From Terriglobales bacterium (GTDB lineage Bacteria; Acidobacteriota; Terriglobia; Terriglobales; Acidobacteriaceae): a DNA stretch of 32,226 nt. Numbering within the stretch: position 1 is the first letter of the stretch; every line of letters begins with the position of its first letter. Location of the stretch: assembly GCA_035624455.1 (NCBI GenBank), contig DASPRM010000104.1, positions 1 to 32,226 of the forward strand. The letters run 5' to 3'. Positions 12,541-22,261 of this stretch are shown here, piece by piece. The position numbers and the translations under genes are program-made. The notes below the pieces were generated by a model. The model was not told the origin of the DNA and made no database searches. It saw only the letters and a list, made by a program, of their open reading frames with translations.

Positions 12541-13191
12541 TCACGCAATGATCCCCTTCCGCACCGCGTAGAGGATCAGCTCCGGCACTCCCCGCAGATT
12601 CAGCTTCTCCATGATGTTCGCGCGATGCGTTTCGACGGTGTACACACTCAGGTTAAGCAGGTTGGCTACATCTTTATTGGACTTCCCTTCCGCTACCAGT
12701 TGCAGAATCTCGCGTTCCCGTGGAGTGAGCAGTTCGTAGGAGTCTTCCACCCCTGACCGCTGCAGCTTGCGCATGTAATCATCTAGCAGCACCTTGCTGA
12801 CTGCCGGACTGAAGAAGCTTTTTGCCTCCGTAACCGCGTGCACGGCGCGAATCAGTTCCGATTCCGCGGAATCCTTCAGCAGATAGCCTCGCGCACCCGC
12901 CTTCAGCGCCCGCAGCACGTAGCTCTCGTCCGAGTGCATGCTCAGCATCACCAACGCTGGAGCCGGGTCCGTCTGAGCAATCTGATGTGCCGCCTCAATG
13001 CCGTTGAGATTTGGCATCCCAATGTCGAGTACGACGACATCCGGCTTGAGCGATTTTGCCAGCGCCACCGCTTGCCGCCCGTCGTCAGCTTCGCCGACCA
13101 CCGTCATGTCCTGCTGCTGCTCGATCAGAAGTTTGAGGCCGCTACGCATCAACTTATGATCGTCGGCCAGCAGGATGCGAATCCTCCTCAT
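12541..13191 (-). CDS. NarL/FixJ-family response regulator
   Basis: A 216-residue cytosolic transcription regulator. The receiver domain (about residues 4-120) has the acidic pair D10/D11 (LLADDHKL), phosphoacceptor D56 (VVLDIGMPN), S84 (VMLSMHSDE) and K106 (GYLLKDS). The LuxR-type helix-turn-helix at about 150-212 carries LTPREREILQLVAEGKSNKD and VYTVETHRANIMEKL. Its first 38 bases overlap the 3' end of the kinase gene, which points to translational coupling and a cognate pair. The next gene downstream on the same strand is the HtrA protease, a plausible target. Confidence 0.95.
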   Translation of the reverse strand: MRRIRILLADDHKLMRSGLKLLIEQQQDMTVVGEADDGRQAVALAKSLKPDVVVLDIGMPNLNGIEAAHQIAQTDPAPALVMLSMHSDESYVLRALKAGARGYLLKDSAESELIRAVHAVTEAKSFFSPAVSKVLLDDYMRKLQRSGVEDSYELLTPREREILQLVAEGKSNKDVANLLNLSVYTVETHRANIMEKLNLRGVPELILYAVRKGIIA

Positions 13192-14596
13192 ACCCTGCGC
13201 GCACCTCTTCCCGGTCTAACGGCAAGTCTGCCTTCATCGACGTTCCCTTTCCCGGCTGCGAATCGATCGTAAGGCTTCCCCTCAGTCGCTTCACGCGCTC
13301 CTCCATCCCCACCAGGCCCATACCCCGAACCCGATCCGACTCGAAGCCCCGGCCGTTGTCGTTCACTTCGACCACAATGCGATCTCTCGCTTGTCGAACG
13401 TTCACGGTCGCATTTTTGGCGCCGGCATGCTGGGATGCATTGTTCAGCGCTTCCTGGACCAGACGGTAGATGCAGATCCTGTATTCATCCGGGAGCTTTT
13501 CCGAAACGCCCTCGGAATGGACCTCCACCTCCATCTCGCCCCGTCGCGACATTTCGCGCGCCTGCCACTCCAGAGCGGGAACTAACCCAAGATCATCCAG
13601 CATCGACGGACGCAACAGCAGGGCAATGTCTCGCACCGTCTTTACCGTTTGTTCGGCTACTGATCGAATGCGCTGCACTTGCTGCTGCATCGCTCCATTC
13701 TCCGACGGCACCATCGCCGATAGCCGCCCCACATCCACCAGTAACGCGCCCAGCGATTGCCCGACTTCATCGTGCAATTCCCGCGATATCGCCCGCCGTT
13801 CTTCTTCCTGTGCATCTACCAGCCGCGCCGAGAGCTCGCGCAGATTCCGGCGGCTCTCTTCCAGTTCGCGGTATCGCTCGCGTCCTTGCCGCTCGAGGCG
13901 CAGGATGTATGCAATGCTGGCGAACGATAGCAACAGCCCTGCGCCCAGCGCCAGGGCCAGCATCCATCCCAGCTTCTTCTGCAATTGGTCCGATCTGGCG
14001 AGCAATGCCCGGTCGGCCGCGTCCAGCCGTTCCCGGTTCAACAGGGCGATCTGCTGCGAGATCTGCAAGATGCTCAGCCGGCGGGGAACGATCTCCTCTA
14101 CGATGAACCGCCGTGCGCGCTCGGGTTGTGACCGCGGATTCCATGTTTCCAACGAGGCAAGCGCATGGTCTTCTTCCCCGAACTGCTTTTCCAGTTCGTT
14201 GAGCAGGCGTTGCTCTTCAGGCTCGCGATCCGGCGGATAAGCATGCAACGCAGAATGTATCTCTGCGACACGATTCGCCATATCTGTCGCTGCCCGATCT
14301 GTTTCCGCAGGCTGACTGCTCAGCAGATATTGCTCAACTCGATTGTTGTAGACATGAACCGAAAGAACCACGGTGGAAATCGCCTGGCTGCGCGCCAGGA
14401 ACTGCCGCCCCACCTGCTGCTGCAACCGGTGCAATTCGCCTAATGAGTAAAGTGCGCCCAACCCGGCCGCGACCATCAGAATCAGCAAGCCGCCAAAGCC
14501 AGCCAACAAAATCGTCCGCAACCTTCGTGCCGACCAGCCGAATTCGACTTCCCCGCCCTCCTCGGGTTTTGTTGCAGCAGCATTCAAAGATTTCAT
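13154..14596 (-). CDS. NarX/DegS-type membrane sensor histidine kinase
   Basis: A 480-residue kinase (490 if the upstream GTG at 14626 is used). Two membrane spans at about residues 26-50 and 209-232 flank a roughly 155-residue all-helical extracytoplasmic domain, similar in layout to CHASE3 or four-helix sensors. After a coiled linker, the HisKA_3 box EEERRAISRELHDEVGQ contains the phosphorylated H275. The HATPase domain has the N-box YRLVQEALNNASQHA and G boxes VNDNGRGF and GMGLVGMEERV. It overlaps the response regulator by 38 bases, so they are a cognate pair. The signal sensed is unknown. Confidence 0.93.
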   Translation of the reverse strand: MKSLNAAATKPEEGGEVEFGWSARRLRTILLAGFGGLLILMVAAGLGALYSLGELHRLQQQVGRQFLARSQAISTVVLSVHVYNNRVEQYLLSSQPAETDRAATDMANRVAEIHSALHAYPPDREPEEQRLLNELEKQFGEEDHALASLETWNPRSQPERARRFIVEEIVPRRLSILQISQQIALLNRERLDAADRALLARSDQLQKKLGWMLALALGAGLLLSFASIAYILRLERQGRERYRELEESRRNLRELSARLVDAQEEERRAISRELHDEVGQSLGALLVDVGRLSAMVPSENGAMQQQVQRIRSVAEQTVKTVRDIALLLRPSMLDDLGLVPALEWQAREMSRRGEMEVEVHSEGVSEKLPDEYRICIYRLVQEALNNASQHAGAKNATVNVRQARDRIVVEVNDNGRGFESDRVRGMGLVGMEERVKRLRGSLTIDSQPGKGTSMKADLPLDREEVRAGYEEDSHPAGRRS

Positions 14597-14752
14597 CGTT
14601 CCACAGAATAGAACATCATCTCTCACAAGCTCAGATGCCCAGGCTGAACGCGAGGACGCACCACTCCCCGTGAGATGAGCGTACTCTCCTGTTCCGATAC
14701 ACTTGTCCTAAGGACCCGGGTGGATGGCACTAAAATCTTCACAAGGAGCGTC

Positions 14753-16354: not shown

Positions 16355-17971
16355 ATGATTCGCAAACTAGCCCTCTGTCTGTTTCTGATCTCCACCTTCC
16401 TTCTCTCGCAGTCCACCACGTCTGCGCAATTCGACGGCAAGAGCTGGTGGGGATACGTGAAAGTCCTTGCCGGCGACGATATGGAAGGCCGCGAGACCGG
16501 CAGTGAAGGACTGCGCAAGGCATCCGCCTTCGTGATCGATCAGCTCAAGAAGAATGGTCTCGAGCCCGCCGGCAACGACGGCTTCTATCAGCCGGTGAAG
16601 CTGCGCTCGCGCCAGATCGTGGAAGATCAATCCAGCCTGGCTCTGGTACGCAACGGCAAAACCCAGCCGCTGGTCCTCGGCGATGATGCCATGTTCAGCA
16701 CTCGCGTCGAACTGGCGCCCAATGTGGAAGCGCCCCTGGTCTTTGTCGGCTATGGCCTGCGCGTGCCGGAAATGCAGTACGACGACCTTGCCGGCCTCGA
16801 CCTGAAAGGCAAAGTCGCCGTTCTTCTCGTGGGATCACCCGAGCAGATGCCCAGCGCCCTGGCCTCTCACTATCAGTCTCTCGGCGAACGCTGGAAGGGC
16901 TTCGAGCAGGCCGGCGTGATCGGCATCATCACCATTCAAAATCCCGCCGCTATGGATATTCCCTGGGAGCGGCAACGCCTGGCCCGCACTCGTCCCAGCA
17001 TGAGCCTCGCGGATCCTGCGCTGGATGACGCGGCCGGCGAGAAACTCGCCGTGATCTTCAATCCCGCTCGCGCGCAGAAGCTCTTCGAGGGAACCGGTCA
17101 CAGCTTCGACGAGATCGCGGCTCTCGGCAAGAATCGCAAACCACTCCCTCACTTTGCCTTGAACGCAACGATCAAGGCCCATGCCACCATGAACACGAAG
17201 GAAGTCGATTCCGCCAACATTGTTGCCAAGCTCCCCGGCTCCGATCCTGCGCTGAAAAATGAGTACGTGGTGCTTTCGGCCCACCTCGATCATCTCGGCA
17301 TCGGCGAACCAATTCATGGCGACCCCATCTACAACGGCGCCATGGATAACGCTTCCGGCAGCGCCGTCCTGCTCGATACCGCTGCCTCGCTTAAACGGTC
17401 GTCAGAAAAGATGAAGCGTTCAGTCCTGTTCCTCTTCCTGACCGCGGAAGAAAAAGGACTGCTGGGCTCCAAATATTTCGCCGCTCATCCCACCGCGCCG
17501 GCGGAGTCGATGATCGCCAATATCAACATCGACATGTTCCTTCCTATCTTCCCTCTCAAGTTGCTCACGGTGTATGGCCTGGCGGAATCAGATCTCGGAG
17601 ACGTAACCCGCGAAGTAGCCCAGAGTCAGGGACTGCGGGTGCAGCCAGATCCCGAGCCGCTGCGCAATGCTTTCATCCGCAGCGATCAATACAACTTCAT
17701 TCGCCATGGAATTCCTGCCGTCGCCATGAAAGTGGGATTTGAAAAGGGTTCGCCGGAGGAAAAACTCGAGCACGCCTGGTTGACGGAGCGCTACCACGCT
17801 CCTTCCGACGACCTCGATCAGCCCGTCGATCTCGCTGCCGCCGGAAAATATGAAGACGTCATCTCTGCGCTGCTGATCACAGTATCCAATTCCGATCGGC
17901 GGCCACAATGGAAGCAGGACAGTTTCTTCCGCCGCTTCGCTGAGCACAATCGCGCCGGCGGTAGTCGTTAA
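16355..17971 (+). CDS. Secreted M28-family zinc aminopeptidase with PA domain
   Basis: A 538-residue exported peptidase that probably removes N-terminal residues from extracellular or periplasmic peptides. ATG 16355 follows AGAGGAA and starts a signal peptide (LALCLFLISTFLLSQ, cleavage near SAQ). A protease-associated domain is inserted at about 110-280. The co-catalytic zinc site is complete: H310 (SAHLDHLG), D331 (AMDNASG), E365/E366 (TAEEKG), D393 (NINIDMF) and H481 (RYHAPSDD). It matches the M28 group of aminopeptidases common in soil bacteria. The in-frame TTG at 16316 is rejected because it would place 13 polar residues before the signal peptide. Confidence 0.94.
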   Translation: MIRKLALCLFLISTFLLSQSTTSAQFDGKSWWGYVKVLAGDDMEGRETGSEGLRKASAFVIDQLKKNGLEPAGNDGFYQPVKLRSRQIVEDQSSLALVRNGKTQPLVLGDDAMFSTRVELAPNVEAPLVFVGYGLRVPEMQYDDLAGLDLKGKVAVLLVGSPEQMPSALASHYQSLGERWKGFEQAGVIGIITIQNPAAMDIPWERQRLARTRPSMSLADPALDDAAGEKLAVIFNPARAQKLFEGTGHSFDEIAALGKNRKPLPHFALNATIKAHATMNTKEVDSANIVAKLPGSDPALKNEYVVLSAHLDHLGIGEPIHGDPIYNGAMDNASGSAVLLDTAASLKRSSEKMKRSVLFLFLTAEEKGLLGSKYFAAHPTAPAESMIANINIDMFLPIFPLKLLTVYGLAESDLGDVTREVAQSQGLRVQPDPEPLRNAFIRSDQYNFIRHGIPAVAMKVGFEKGSPEEKLEHAWLTERYHAPSDDLDQPVDLAAAGKYEDVISALLITVSNSDRRPQWKQDSFFRRFAEHNRAGGSR

Positions 17972-18062
17972 GGAACCTGAGGGGGCCCCCATCCTAGCTC
18001 CCTTTTGGCAAGGGCGGTGTAATTAAGGAGCTATGTGGGAACGGTCGCCCTCGTCTGCTCTG

Positions 18063-18081
18063 GTCGAGGCGAAGCCTCGAC
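18063..18081. repeat. Compact intergenic hairpin
   Basis: GTCGAGGC (18063-18070), loop GAA, GCCTCGAC (18074-18081): a perfect 8-bp stem. Compared with GTCGAGCC-GCA-GGCTCGAC at 9966, the stem differs at one position and the partner base differs in compensation. Confidence 0.65.
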
Positions 18082-18102
18082 ACTGTTGAAGAATTCGTCG
18101 AA

Positions 18103-18157
18103 TGTCATCCTGAGCGAGGGCCGGGCATAAAGCCCCTGGCCCGAGTCGAAGGACCTG
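18103..18157. repeat. Intergenic stem-loop repeat, family A copy 2
   Basis: It begins TGTCATCCTGAGCGAG and continues to CCCGAGTCGAAGGACCTG, as copy 1 at 759. The inner stem is GGGCC/GGCCC here, where copy 1 has GGACC/GGTCC, a compensatory change that preserves pairing. Confidence 0.75.
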
Positions 18158-18302
18158 GTGTTTTCTTTGTGAAGGCAGAGGAATTCAGAGAGAAGGAAAA
18201 CTTTGCCCTCGGCCCAAACCTTTGCGACCCCCGGCTATTTCTTTCATCTGAAACCTGTACTGTCCGGCTAACTCCAGCGCCAGCGATCTGAGGTTCCGAA
18301 TT

Positions 18303-19976
18303 ATGGCCAGCAAGCCAGTCATTCTTACTGTTGACGATGATCCTGATGTTCTGCGAGCCATCGAGCGCGATCTGCGCCAGGAATATGCCGACCGTTACCG
18401 CATCCTGCGGGCGAATTCCCCCGGCTCGGCTCTCGATTCCCTGCGCCAGCTCAAAGCGCGCAACGAAGCCGTTGCTCTCATGCTCGCCGACCAGCGTATG
18501 CCGGAGCTCGACGGCGTCGGCTTCCTCTCTGAAGCCATGCAGCTTTACCCCGACGCCAAGCGCGCCCTGCTCACCGCCTACGCCGACACCGACGCCGCCA
18601 TCAACGCCATCAACAAGGTCAAGATCCATCACTTTTTCCTGAAGCCCTGGGACCCGCCCAGCGAGCACCTCTATCCGGTCCTTGGTGACATGCTGGAGGA
18701 CTGGCAAGCCTCCTACAAGCCACCCTATCAGGGGATCCGGGTTCTGGGCACCCGCTGGTCTCCGACCTCATATGACGTCCGCGAATTCCTGGCGCGCAAT
18801 CAGATTCCCTACCAGTGGATGGACGTCGAAACCGCTGCCAATGATCCCGAGGTTCACCAGCTGTTGCAATCGCTTGGAGATCAGGCCAGCGAACTTCCCG
18901 TCGTGCTTCTGCCGGACGGAACCCGCCTTGTGCAGCCTACGACCGGCGACCTGGCACAGAAGATCGGTTTGCGCACTCGCGCGCAAGTGGATTTCTACGA
19001 TCTCATCATCATAGGTGGAGGTCCCGCTGGTCTTGCCGCCGCTGTATACGGCGCATCGGAAGGCCTCAAAACCGTGATCGTCGAACGCGAAGCACCGGGC
19101 GGCCAGGCGGGTCTCAGCTCACGCATCGAAAATTACCTCGGGTTCCCCACCGGCCTGAGCGGCAGTGACCTTGCGCGCCGGGCCGTAATTCAGGCGCGTC
19201 GCTTTGGCGTCGAGATCCTCTCGCCGCAGGAAGCCATCGGCCTTCGCATCGATGGCCCTTACCGCATCCTCAAGCTCTCCGACAGTTCGGAGATCTCCTG
19301 TCACGCATTGGTCCTCGCTATGGGCCTGCAGTGGCGCAAACTGGATGTCCCCGGCGCCGACCGCCTTCAGGGCGCGGGCCTCTATTACGGTGCCGGAACT
19401 ACCGAGGCTATGTCCTGTAAGGGTGAGACCGTATACATTGTTGGTGGCGCCAATTCCGCTGGCCAGGCTGCCATGGGATTTTCCAAATATGCCGGCCGGG
19501 TGGTCATGCTCGTCCGCGGAACCTCGCTTGCGCAGACGATGTCGCAATATCTGATCGACCAGATCAAGGACACTCCGAACATCCACGTGTCCTATGATTC
19601 CAGCGTGGTCGAGGTCCACGGCGAGAAGCGGCTGGAAGAGATTTCGATCCTTTGTTCCAAGACGGGGGCTATAGAACGCGTCCCGGCCAGTGGGCTGTTC
19701 ATCTTCATCGGCGCGATGCCGCGCACCGACTGGTTGGGAGATCTGGTCGAACGCGACGACCATGGCTTCATCCTCGCGGGCCCGCAGCTGGTGCGCGATG
19801 GCAAGCGTCCGCGTGGCTGGACCTTGGACCGCGATCCCTTTTTGATGGAAACTAACATCCCCGGCGTTCTGGTTGTGGGCGATGTTCGCCAGGGCTCCGT
19901 GAAGCGCGTGGCCTCAGCTGTCGGTCAAGGCTCGATCGCGGTTCAGTTCGTTCACCAATACCTGAGCAAGGTGTAG
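18303..19976 (+). CDS. Fused response regulator / thioredoxin-reductase-like flavoprotein
   Basis: A 557-residue cytosolic three-part fusion. Residues 1-135 are a receiver domain: D11-D13, phosphoacceptor D63 in LADQRMPELDG, T91 in LLTAYAD, K114 in FFLKPW. Residues about 143-225 resemble a glutaredoxin/thioredoxin fold (IRVLGTRWSPTSYDVREFL, ELPVVLLPDGT), but the usual CPYC is replaced by WSPTSYDV. Residues about 231-557 are a TrxB-type FAD/NAD(P) reductase with GGGPAG (238-243), APGGQAG, the dinucleotide site VGGANSAGQAA (380-390) and the C-terminal FAD motif VVGDVRQGSVKR. The TrxB CATC position reads YGAGTTEAM, so the dithiol is absent. ATG 18303 has GAGG 9 bases upstream. One base separates it from the sensor kinase gene. 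The catalytic or sensory role is inferred. Confidence 0.9.
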   Translation: MASKPVILTVDDDPDVLRAIERDLRQEYADRYRILRANSPGSALDSLRQLKARNEAVALMLADQRMPELDGVGFLSEAMQLYPDAKRALLTAYADTDAAINAINKVKIHHFFLKPWDPPSEHLYPVLGDMLEDWQASYKPPYQGIRVLGTRWSPTSYDVREFLARNQIPYQWMDVETAANDPEVHQLLQSLGDQASELPVVLLPDGTRLVQPTTGDLAQKIGLRTRAQVDFYDLIIIGGGPAGLAAAVYGASEGLKTVIVEREAPGGQAGLSSRIENYLGFPTGLSGSDLARRAVIQARRFGVEILSPQEAIGLRIDGPYRILKLSDSSEISCHALVLAMGLQWRKLDVPGADRLQGAGLYYGAGTTEAMSCKGETVYIVGGANSAGQAAMGFSKYAGRVVMLVRGTSLAQTMSQYLIDQIKDTPNIHVSYDSSVVEVHGEKRLEEISILCSKTGAIERVPASGLFIFIGAMPRTDWLGDLVERDDHGFILAGPQLVRDGKRPRGWTLDRDPFLMETNIPGVLVVGDVRQGSVKRVASAVGQGSIAVQFVHQYLSKV

Positions 19977-19977
19977 C

Positions 19978-21423
19978 GTGGCGCTAGACGATCTGAAGCA
20001 AGCAGAAAATCCGAAGCAAGCTGGCAATTTGAAAGAGGACTTCCGCGGGATAGCTATTTTCTCCGATCTCTCCGACGAAGATTTGCAATGGCTGGCGGAT
20101 CACGCTGAAGAATCCCGATTCGCCCCTGGCGAGATCATGATCCGCGAAGGTGCGCCAGCCGACGCCATGATCATCTATCTCGAAGGCGAAACCGAAGGGC
20201 GCGTCGAACAGGGAGCCGATGATGGCCGCGTCTACTCAGCCCGGGCCGGCGATGTTACCGGCATGTTGCCGTATTCGCGGCTGAAAATAATTCCTCTCAC
20301 CATCAGGGCAATCATCCCCACCAGAATCGCCCTGATACCTGCCGCCTTGTTTGATGAGATGCTGCATCACATTCCGGTGCTTCGCGGACGTCTGGTCAGC
20401 CTGCTTGCGGATCGGGTCCGTGAAGTCACCAAGGCGGACCAGCAGCGCGAACGTCTCGCAGCCCTGGGAAAGCTCTCCGCCGGACTCGCCCACGAGCTCA
20501 ACAATCCGGCCGCCGCCGCCCGCCGCGCCGCCAACACCCTTGGCGACACCCTGCAGCGGCTGTACAAGGCCTGTGACGATTTGCAGGAAGTCCCGCTATC
20601 TACGGAAGCAAGCAACTACCTCTGCCGCTTCGAATCCGAACTGCTTTCGCGCCCGCCCGCTCCTCCCCTGGACCCACTGGCGCAGAGCGAGCGCGAAGAA
20701 GCCATGAGCGACTGGCTGGCCAAGGGCGGCGTATCCGAGCCCTGGAAATTTGCTCCGGAGTTGGTCGAGTCTGGCATTACAACCCAGGAACTGCGCGAGC
20801 TTCACTCTCACTGTCCCGAGATTCCGCCCGACAATCTTGCCAATCGCATCGTTAGTAAAATGCAACTCGCCCGGCTGGCAAGGGAAATCGAGAACGCTAC
20901 TGCCCGCATCTCGGAACTGGTGAAGGCGATTAAGGAATACTCCTTTATGGACCAGGCCCCGGTGCAAGACGTCGATGTTCGCAACGGCCTGGAAAGCACG
21001 CTCACCATCCTCAATCACAAGCTGAAACACGGCATCAGTGTGATCCGCAATTACGCCTCCGATATTCCTCGCATCCCCTCCTATGGCAGCGAACTGAACC
21101 AGGTCTGGACCAACCTCATCGACAATGCCGCTGACGCCATGAACGGCAAGGGCGAACTGCGAATACGGGTGGCCCAGGAAGACACTTCATTGTTGGTCGA
21201 AATTCGCGACAACGGCCCCGGAATTCCCGCCGAGATTCAGCCGCACATTTTCGAGCCCTTCTTCACTACAAAAGATGTGGGCAAGGGCACCGGCCTGGGC
21301 CTCGATACCGTGTACCGCATCATCCGCAAGCATCACGGCACGATCAGCTTTGTATCGCGCCCTGGGGATACATGTTTTCGCGTCCGACTGCCGGTGCAGC
21401 GCCCCCTCGAGCCCCTGCATTAG
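19978..21423 (+). CDS. Sensor histidine kinase with N-terminal cyclic-nucleotide-binding-like domain
   Basis: A 481-residue soluble kinase with no membrane span. Residues about 22-135 match a CRP-like cNMP-binding fold (IAIFSDLSDEDLQWLADH, FAPGEIMIREGAPADAMIIYLEGE). A coiled stretch then leads to the dimerisation box LAALGKLSAGLAHELNNPAA with phosphorylated H172. The ATPase domain has the N-box NQVWTNLIDNAADAMNG, DNGPGIP, FEPFFTTK and GKGTGLGLDTVYR. The GTG start at 19978 lies one base after the stop of the receiver-reductase gene, so translation is almost certainly coupled and the two proteins are probable partners. The long insert between H box and ATPase (about 195-310) is unusual. The ligand is unknown; the cNMP-contacting Arg is not obvious. 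Confidence 0.92.
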   Translation: MALDDLKQAENPKQAGNLKEDFRGIAIFSDLSDEDLQWLADHAEESRFAPGEIMIREGAPADAMIIYLEGETEGRVEQGADDGRVYSARAGDVTGMLPYSRLKIIPLTIRAIIPTRIALIPAALFDEMLHHIPVLRGRLVSLLADRVREVTKADQQRERLAALGKLSAGLAHELNNPAAAARRAANTLGDTLQRLYKACDDLQEVPLSTEASNYLCRFESELLSRPPAPPLDPLAQSEREEAMSDWLAKGGVSEPWKFAPELVESGITTQELRELHSHCPEIPPDNLANRIVSKMQLARLAREIENATARISELVKAIKEYSFMDQAPVQDVDVRNGLESTLTILNHKLKHGISVIRNYASDIPRIPSYGSELNQVWTNLIDNAADAMNGKGELRIRVAQEDTSLLVEIRDNGPGIPAEIQPHIFEPFFTTKDVGKGTGLGLDTVYRIIRKHHGTISFVSRPGDTCFRVRLPVQRPLEPLH

Positions 21424-21440
21424 AACAAGGACCCTGCGGG

Positions 21441-21477
21441 TGCCCTGCTCTAGCCGTCTTTTGGCTAGGGTGGGGTA
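21441..21477. repeat. CTTTTGG intergenic repeat, family C remnant
   Basis: GTGCCCTGCTCTAGCC is followed by the loop GTCTTTT and then GGCTAGGGTGGGG. The right arm could pair with an intact CCCCACCCTAGCC, but the left arm has diverged. The layout matches the better preserved copy at 15741. Confidence 0.4.
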
Positions 21478-21537
21478 GTTTCTTGTGAGCACGCGGCATC
21501 AGTGCTCAGAAGCGACCCCATAGATCGGTGTTGAAAG

Positions 21538-21591
21538 GGCGCGGCTTTCAGCCGCGCCGTCCAGAGCCGCAGAAATCCTGGGCTTTAGCCC
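21538..21591. repeat. Tandem compact hairpins upstream of maf
   Basis: GGCGCGGCT (21538-21546), loop TTC, AGCCGCGCC (21550-21558) is a perfect 9-bp stem. A smaller GGGCT (21580-21584), loop TT, AGCCC (21587-21591) follows 21 bases later. No T-run is present and no gene is covered. Confidence 0.65.
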
Positions 21592-21679
21592 CTGAGGGAA
21601 ACGGACGTTTACCCCTCGGTTCATTGTGAGATTCCTTCTCAGCGCAACTACTGACTACTGATTATGTTGAAATACTCCC

Positions 21680-22261
21680 ATGCCCCTGATCCTTGCCTCG
21701 TCGTCCCCTCGCCGCCGTGAACTGCTCCAGGCCGCCTCCATCCCCTTCATTTCCCAGCCTGCCGACGTCCCCGAAGTCCACACTCCCGGGGAACTTCCAA
21801 CGCAATTCTCCGAGCGCCTCGCCCGCGAAAAGGCCCGGGCTGTCTGGCAAAAACTCCCCACCAACCCCAGCAACTTCGTTCTCGGTGCCGACACTATCGT
21901 CATCGTGGATAACCACATCCTCGGCAAACCCGGCAGCCCCGACGACGCCGTCCGCATGCTGCGCCTCATCTCCGGTCGCACTCACGAGGTCACGACCAGC
22001 GTCTGCCTGATCGGCGCCAATTCCGGCCGCACCTACGAGGACGTTCGTAGCGAAACCAGCCGGGTGGTTGTCTCCCCCATCAGCGAGCAGGAAATCCGTG
22101 ATTATGTCGGCCACGGTGAACCCATGGACAAGGCTGGCGCCTACGCAATCCAGGGCGTCGCTGGGCGCTGGATCCCGCGCATCGAAGGCTGTTATTTCAA
22201 TATCGTTGGCTTGCCCATCCCCCTCGTGTATCGCATGCTCAAAGAACACGGCGCACTCTAA
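21680..22261 (+). CDS. maf: Maf-family nucleotide pyrophosphatase
   Basis: Housecleaning enzyme that hydrolyses non-canonical or methylated nucleoside triphosphates (dTTP/UTP- or m7GTP-type substrates) to the monophosphate. The 193-residue product is full length, with LILASSSPRRRELL at the N-terminus, FSERLAREKA, the GADTIVIVD metal site, the LISGRTHEV loop and DKAGAYAIQG. These match the YhdE-like subgroup, where SSSPRR and DKAG are diagnostic. The ATG at 21680 has no Shine-Dalgarno in front of it. The gene converges on the YdjM-like gene with only 15 bases between the stops. Confidence 0.94.
   Translation: MPLILASSSPRRRELLQAASIPFISQPADVPEVHTPGELPTQFSERLAREKARAVWQKLPTNPSNFVLGADTIVIVDNHILGKPGSPDDAVRMLRLISGRTHEVTTSVCLIGANSGRTYEDVRSETSRVVVSPISEQEIRDYVGHGEPMDKAGAYAIQGVAGRWIPRIEGCYFNIVGLPIPLVYRMLKEHGAL

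Follow-up and report, generated by a model that had tools for sequence, protein, structure and literature searches.

Response regulators in which a receiver (REC) domain is joined to a thioredoxin reductase (TrxR) are a described kind of protein: in the passages of PMC5847659 on predicted enzymatic domains of response regulators, thioredoxin reductase is listed, and a Mycobacterium-like REC-TrxR combination is named that is also found in two Heimdallarchaeota. Flavoproteins with a TrxR-like fold but no CxxC are described as well, and the relevant passages of PMC10294844 have TrxR-like FNRs of this sort acting on ferredoxin, flavodoxin, bacillithiol disulfide or IsdG. Both ingredients of the protein analysed here, the REC-TrxR fusion and the TrxR-like fold without CxxC, are therefore already known kinds. 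The protein is encoded in a stretch of 32,226 nucleotides from a Terriglobales bacterium (Acidobacteriota; assembly GCA_035624455.1, contig DASPRM010000104.1), which we refer to as the window, and the features discussed below are collected in Table 1.

The window protein is the same fusion of a receiver with a TrxR-type module as the response regulators of PMC5847659, and no difference from them emerged; its glutaredoxin-fold (Grx-fold) segment and its lack of the catalytic cysteines are features that the source's passages on the REC-TrxR architecture do not mention. It has in common with the TrxR-like FNRs of PMC10294844 the TrxR-like fold without CxxC, yet it carries receiver and Grx-fold domains and, stopping where aligned TrxB proteins stop, has no C-terminal extension or FAD-stacking subdomain. 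Among its PDB sequence matches TrxR ranked well above FNR, and given the absent C-terminal feature we rejected the TrxR-like FNRs as its family. With low-Mr TrxB it shares fold, FAD motif and domain order, and differs from it in the missing CxxC, an altered NAD(P) motif and the additional N-terminal domains. AhpF resembles it in having a domain of the thioredoxin superfamily ahead of its TR module, but AhpF keeps its dithiols; the window protein scored 144.8 against the AhpF profile (TIGR03140; cut-off 502.9) and has no CxxC. A review of cyanobacterial thioredoxin systems (PMC9025218) covers NTR, NTRC, FFTR and DDOR, with no mention of this fusion in its passages on them. In the open-licence literature we found no paper on a family-wide loss of both dithiols or on function, and PMC5847659 was the sole source found that names the REC-TrxR architecture, although older mentions may exist. 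The family is real and, as far as this literature shows, uncharacterised.

Table 1. Features of the fusion gene and its partner kinase gene (positions in the window).
Feature	Position	Strand	Basis
Receiver-Grx fold-TrxB-like fusion gene, 557 aa	18303..19976	+	ORF, Pfam/NCBIfam, relatives
Receiver domain, residues 7-118	18321..18656	+	PF00072, 46.6 bits (cut-off 30.2)
Phospho-acceptor D63 of the receiver (with T91, K114)	18489-18491	+	residue conservation
Predicted glutaredoxin-fold segment without catalytic cysteines, residues 142-225	18726..18977	+	AlphaFold2 model, structural matches
W152-S153-P154-T155-S156, at the site of W-C-x-D/E-C in free Grx	18756..18770	+	alignment to Grx proteins from related genomes
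TrxB-like FAD/NAD(P) module, residues 231-557	18993..19973	+	TIGR01292 (below cut-off); VIA match to 5mh4
Y362-G-A-G-T-T-E-A-M370, at the TrxB CxxC site	19386..19412	+	alignment with TrxB rows
C372, most conserved cysteine (56/63 RR rows)	19416..19418	+	alignment
Partner histidine kinase: CNB-like N-terminus, H172, HATPase_c	19978..21423	+	Pfam, adjacency
Kinase H172	20491-20493	+	conserved in 62/62 kinases
Kinase stretch of ~110 residues between H-box helix and second DHp-like helix (approximate boundaries)	20560..20877	+	62-kinase alignment
Terminator-like hairpin 3' of the kinase gene	21441..21477	+	weak: 4 sites in the region, 4.0 expected

Two architectures recur among the relatives of the window protein, a receiver type (RR) and a type in which a cyclic-nucleotide-binding domain takes the receiver's place (CNB type). 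The 63 RR alignment rows, the 64 RR rows, the 43 RR loci and the 62 kinases referred to below each include the window's own. Three proteins need separate mention: L046, which has an in-frame TAA, was kept out of the alignments yet is counted among the 64 loci examined for kinase adjacency; L066, in which the N-terminal part of the receiver is missing, was grouped with the CNB type in the 63-row alignment and the 64-locus count, and with the RR type in the 95-module tree, the 64-row cysteine counts and the short-flank locus comparison; and L058 was retained among the RR rows despite having no PF00072 match.

Pfam found two domains in the window protein, PF00072 at residues 7-118 and PF07992 at 232-543, and no DNA-binding domain. 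The receiver scores above its cut-off and has its phospho-site residues in place: in the alignment of full-length proteins, to which the window protein belongs, D63 occurs in 63/63 rows, and T91 and K114 in 62/63 each. A scan of positions 17800-21900 found no sigma-70 promoter. Elsewhere in the window lies a second, ordinary two-component pair (12541-14626, minus strand), consisting of a LuxR-type response regulator and a HisKA_3 kinase.

The middle segment of the protein had no Pfam match. Modelled on its own with AlphaFold2 from a 14-row alignment, it gave a mean pLDDT of 81.9 and the order beta-alpha-beta-alpha-beta-beta-alpha. The best structural matches were of glutaredoxin type: the top VIA-align row was 7c12 (Z 11.8, rmsd 1.4, 73 residues aligned; rows within Z 1 are tied), and NrdH (1h75) aligned over 76 residues with Z 10.8 and rmsd 2.8, so that the model points to a thioredoxin/glutaredoxin fold. 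The CxxC or CxxS of glutaredoxins (PF00462) is replaced by W-S-P-T-S, onto which the W-C-x-D/E-C of free glutaredoxins aligns. Cysteines at this site are scarce throughout the 64 RR rows (position 153, none; position 156, three), and one CNB-type row (L029) has a single cysteine at position 153.

Among the free glutaredoxins of the 21 genomes searched there were eight genes with a single in-frame TGA exactly at the first cysteine of the CxxC (TGA-P-P-C), namely L101 in the window genome (G000:C157:53050-53226) and L102-L108, and this suggests selenocysteine glutaredoxins. A strong tRNA-Sec match (at least 66 bits) was found in six of the eight genomes (G000, G003, G004, G005, G011 and G038) and was absent from G001 and G007.

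The C-terminal module has thioredoxin-disulfide reductase (TIGR01292) as its best NCBIfam match, well under the cut-off (208.6 bits against 343.45). In the AlphaFold model of the full protein (mean pLDDT 86.3, pTM 0.70), residues 227-557 match TrxB structures, the top rows being tied (e.g., 5mh4, Z 33.2, rmsd 2.5, 300 aligned). The CATC of the TrxB rows (8/8) aligns onto G363-T367, with one extra residue in the fusion, and in the dithiol-free proteins this old CxxC site sits in a motif of its own, G-V-Y-Y-G-[AG]-[AG]-x-x-E-A. The first set of in-frame, full-length proteins, counting the window's own, has Y362 and G363 in 63/63 and E368 in 62/63; the divergent relative L137 has Ser at 363. The FAD motif GxGxxG is kept (G238 and G240 in 63/63, G243 in 62/63), as are G526 and D527 (63/63). 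The NAD(P) site is altered: GGGD[ST]A of TrxB has become GGANSA (GxGxxA to GxAxxA), with A383 in 61/63 and Gly kept at this position in three divergent relatives (L133, L135 and L136), and HRR (8/8 TrxB rows) has become VRG or similar in the RR proteins, R405 being present in 63/63. In E. coli TrxB, residues at these positions contact the 2'-phosphate of NADPH. Nucleotide binding is plausible but not to be taken for granted, since with the site altered the protein may use nucleotide only weakly, in a changed way or no longer at all. The sequence-only reading had described a complete receiver, a Grx-like segment without CxxC and a TrxB-type reductase with YGAGTTEAM in place of CATC, all of which were borne out here; its further statement that both the FAD and NAD(P) motifs are intact holds for the FAD motif and not fully for the NAD(P) motif, which is altered in two places.

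The domain arrangement of the full-length model is nearer to 5mh4, which is titled FR, than to 5mjk, a structure of the same enzyme that is titled FO (Z 30.2, rmsd 6.5, 295 aligned). An FR-like arrangement would fit an enzyme that has no dithiol to reach, but this is weak evidence because the model had neither ligand nor partner chain. The loss of both dithiols and the altered NAD(P) motif could also be read as signs of a catalytically dead flavoprotein, through which the receiver would act by way of a dimer scaffold or by docking other proteins. We consider this improbable, given that the glycines of the FAD site together with Y362, G363 and E368 are kept across seven phyla, which is more than a scaffold seems to need.

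The absence of the TrxB CxxC extends to every dithiol-free core that we compiled, 90 of 90 in seven phyla (64 RR rows with L066, 7 CNB-type rows and 19 later rows; window included). By contrast, 24/24 distinct TrxB proteins (from 28 loci) have it, as against 0/64 RR and 0/7 CNB-type rows; the window genome itself encodes a separate TrxB with CATC (L002). The first set consisted of best matches alone, and 20 further matches from a search of 297 genomes of the phylum were then added, others remaining. Of these 20, only L146 has the CxxC. Among the other 19, a single cysteine at the Grx site occurs in several rows and both cysteines in none, and the 13 non-RR rows among them were classed without a domain scan. 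With both dithiols gone, and the loss common to the family members examined, normal TrxR or Grx dithiol chemistry appears very unlikely for the window protein, in line with the argument of the sequence-only reading, which had also asked whether the loss is conserved in homologues.

That reading had named two findings that would undo it, a sequencing error and an alternative redox cysteine pair. One relative, from a Pleurocapsa MAG (L046), does have an in-frame TAA at the Y362 codon (L046:6072-6074), but nothing of the kind occurs in the window, and the same kind of replacement is found in all 63 in-frame, full-length proteins. Since the cysteine loss is common to the family members examined, error or pseudogene decay as its cause can be excluded, and we give it a negligible probability. 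As for an alternative pair, cysteines occur at three positions of the window protein (333, 372 and 451). C333 and C372 are found together in 47/64 RR rows and 0/7 CNB-type rows, and C333, with or without C372, in 50/63 RR rows. A C333-x-x-C336 motif is present in 16/64 RR rows, all within one 24-row acidobacterial clade of the 95-module tree, and another pair is seen in L088; both are absent from the window protein. We therefore rejected a hidden, family-wide alternative dithiol, the pairs seen in the sequences being limited to particular lineages.

C372 may still have a role as a single thiol or within particular lineages. Disulfide chemistry might proceed by another route, with C372 as a single thiol or with a low-molecular-weight disulfide as substrate, the latter being the case in YpdA/Bdr, a bacillithiol disulfide reductase that has no CxxC. 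Consistent with this are the frequency of C372 (56/63 RR and 7/7 CNB-type rows), a weak match to the YpdA profile (TIGR04018, 65.2 bits against 339.9) and the structural match of Bdr (7a7b) to the model (Z 27.4, rmsd 3.1, 296 aligned). The YpdA score nonetheless lies far under its cut-off, C372 is replaced by Y, V, T or A in 7/63 RR rows and by F or T in 4/6 later RR rows, and 3/64 RR proteins have only one cysteine in the whole protein. We hold such a route to be quite doubtful.

The fusion belongs, as a typical member, to a family that spans several phyla, and is not a rare or lone oddity. Full-length relatives were found in genomes of Acidobacteriota, Cyanobacteriota, Chloroflexota and Bacteroidota and on plasmid records of Deinococcota, Actinomycetota and Pseudomonadota. 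A full-length match (E < 1e-200) was present in 17 of the 61 genomes near the window (its own included), and 52 of 297 genomes of the phylum had a match of either architecture at E 1e-60 or better. Plasmid annotation names the relatives FAD-dependent oxidoreductase and their CNB sister type "cyclic nucleotide-binding domain-containing thioredoxin-disulfide reductase". The CNB-type proteins have the same Grx-fold and TR core as the window protein, likewise without CxxC, and differ from it in carrying PF00027 (above cut-off in 7/7 proteins scanned) in place of the receiver and in having no partner kinase at any of the six short-flank loci.

The nearest dithiol-bearing relatives that we found are two rare, acidobacterial proteins. 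L146 (1498-2733, minus strand) is a two-domain Grx-TrxR fusion with WCPDC and CATC intact, a glutaredoxin part recognised by PF00462 (35.6 bits, cut-off 22.9) and, in the Pfam scan, no switch domain; L153 (G420:C49:375352-376509, minus strand) is a second such fusion, with WCGDC and CATC. They have the same Grx and TR core as the window protein, L146/L153 being 38% identical to it over 415 columns, and differ from it in their intact dithiols. A search of 396 genomes of the phylum with L146 as query gave three matches at E 1e-95, namely L146, L153 and one already-counted RR-type protein, and no further dithiol-bearing Grx-TrxR fusions were found in plasmids at E 1e-90 or in viral contigs.

In a tree of 95 modules (IQ-TREE) the dithiol-free proteins lay on one side of a branch with 100/100 support, and the RR type formed one group (97/95). 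In a wider, quicker tree of 116 modules (FastTree), which included 21 additional, divergent rows, L146 and L153 were separated from TrxB together with the dithiol-free cores (support 1.0) and fell outside the dithiol-free group with weak support (0.735). The RR type was no longer one group there, and for this reason a single joining of receiver to core is not secure. Neither tree contains AhpF, because a search of 41 genomes gave nothing above the cut-off. As L146 and L153 keep both dithiols, the simplest history would be that a Grx-TrxR fusion lost both of them and gained switch domains.

The gene downstream of the fusion encodes a histidine kinase whose predicted GTG start lies one base past the fusion-gene stop. 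Pfam detects HATPase_c (93.5 bits), with cNMP_binding (25.9, cut-off 27.5) and HisKA (19.7, cut-off 26.9) both sub-threshold. A relative of this kinase is present at 61 of 64 RR loci, directly downstream on the same strand at 48 of them; the three loci without it are L044 (a short contig), L046 and L058. With flanks of ~1.5 kb, shorter at some contig ends, the kinase was found at 43/43 RR loci (window included) and at 0/6 CNB-type, 0/28 TrxB and 0/12 Grx loci. Among the later rows it was found at 5/6 RR loci, 0/13 other cores and not at L146, so that the short-flank loci combined give 48/49 for the RR type as against 0/19 for other dithiol-free cores and 0/28 for TrxB. The exception is L137, from an acidobacterial genome. 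In both L137 and L058 (3998-5593, on a Streptomyces plasmid) receiver residues have been lost, and neither gene has such a kinase in its vicinity; phospho-control is thus not universal, and in these two the core is apparently used without it. For the window protein, the adjoining kinase and the intact phospho-site fit the control by phosphorylation that the sequence-only reading had proposed.

The kinase has features of its own. In the stretch following the H-box helix, E240 is present in 61 and W256 in 57 of the 62 aligned kinases, and the stretch occurs in all 11 rows inspected; with its columns conserved in this way, it looks like an insertion in the dimerisation domain. In the CNB-like domain (20116-20367; below the Pfam cut-off) the phosphate-cassette region reads GDVTGMLPYSRLK. 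The usual phosphate-cassette pattern of cyclic-nucleotide-binding domains is GEL...R, and because of this difference and the sub-threshold score the ligand may be something other than a cyclic nucleotide. At two actinobacterial RR loci the kinase gene is followed by a UBP-type zinc-finger gene (L054:8110-8463 and L056:8137-8487), and in Rhodococcus such a gene (L059:2283-2549) lies before the CNB-type gene, beside trxA and clpB.

Because either REC or PF00027 is joined to the same core, the comparison suggests that the core is the effector. A sensor arrangement would reverse the direction of signalling: the flavin/NAD(P)H module would read the nucleotide pool or redox state and, via the receiver, tune the neighbouring kinase as a phosphate sink or phosphatase. 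The tight linkage of the kinase, the lack of a DNA-binding domain in the fusion (Pfam) and an NAD(P) site whose outline survives with changes, as might be expected of a module that binds nucleotide but turns over slowly, are consistent with it. Receivers, on the other hand, normally signal to their own attached domain, and the 0/19 count for CNB-type and other cores with this kinase within ~1.5 kb indicates that the core is useful apart from the kinase. With two unrelated switch domains sharing the core, and the core occurring without this kinase nearby, we favour output over sensor and regard the sensor arrangement as unlikely.

Our preferred reading, in which we have about even confidence, is that a dedicated two-component pair has the fusion as its output, an NAD(P)H flavoprotein that is gated by phosphorylation and has no dithiol relay. 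The neighbouring kinase would phosphorylate D63 of the receiver, as adjacency and the intact motifs suggest, and the phosphorylated receiver would alter the arrangement or dimerisation of the Grx-fold spacer and the TrxB-type FAD module. The flavin of the core would be reduced directly by NAD(P)H and, because neither dithiol exists, electrons would leave it for an acceptor other than a protein disulfide reached through a CxxC relay. The Grx fold may now be a structural or docking domain, in an oxidoreductase derived, to judge from L146 and L153, from a Grx-TrxR fusion with both dithiols.

More tentatively, and with less than even confidence, the relatives may represent a widespread two-component class in which a receiver switches a dithiol-shed, Grx-TrxR-derived NAD(P)H flavoenzyme, so that redox flow would be changed directly and not via transcription, the core being alternatively joined to a CNB domain. 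The name thioredoxin-disulfide reductase on plasmid records implies residues that these proteins do not have, and genes for the dithiol-free fusions should not be counted as thiol-reduction capacity. A conserved, kinase-paired and dithiol-free flavoprotein in at least seven phyla bears on whether phosphorelays gate electron flow directly in bacteria.
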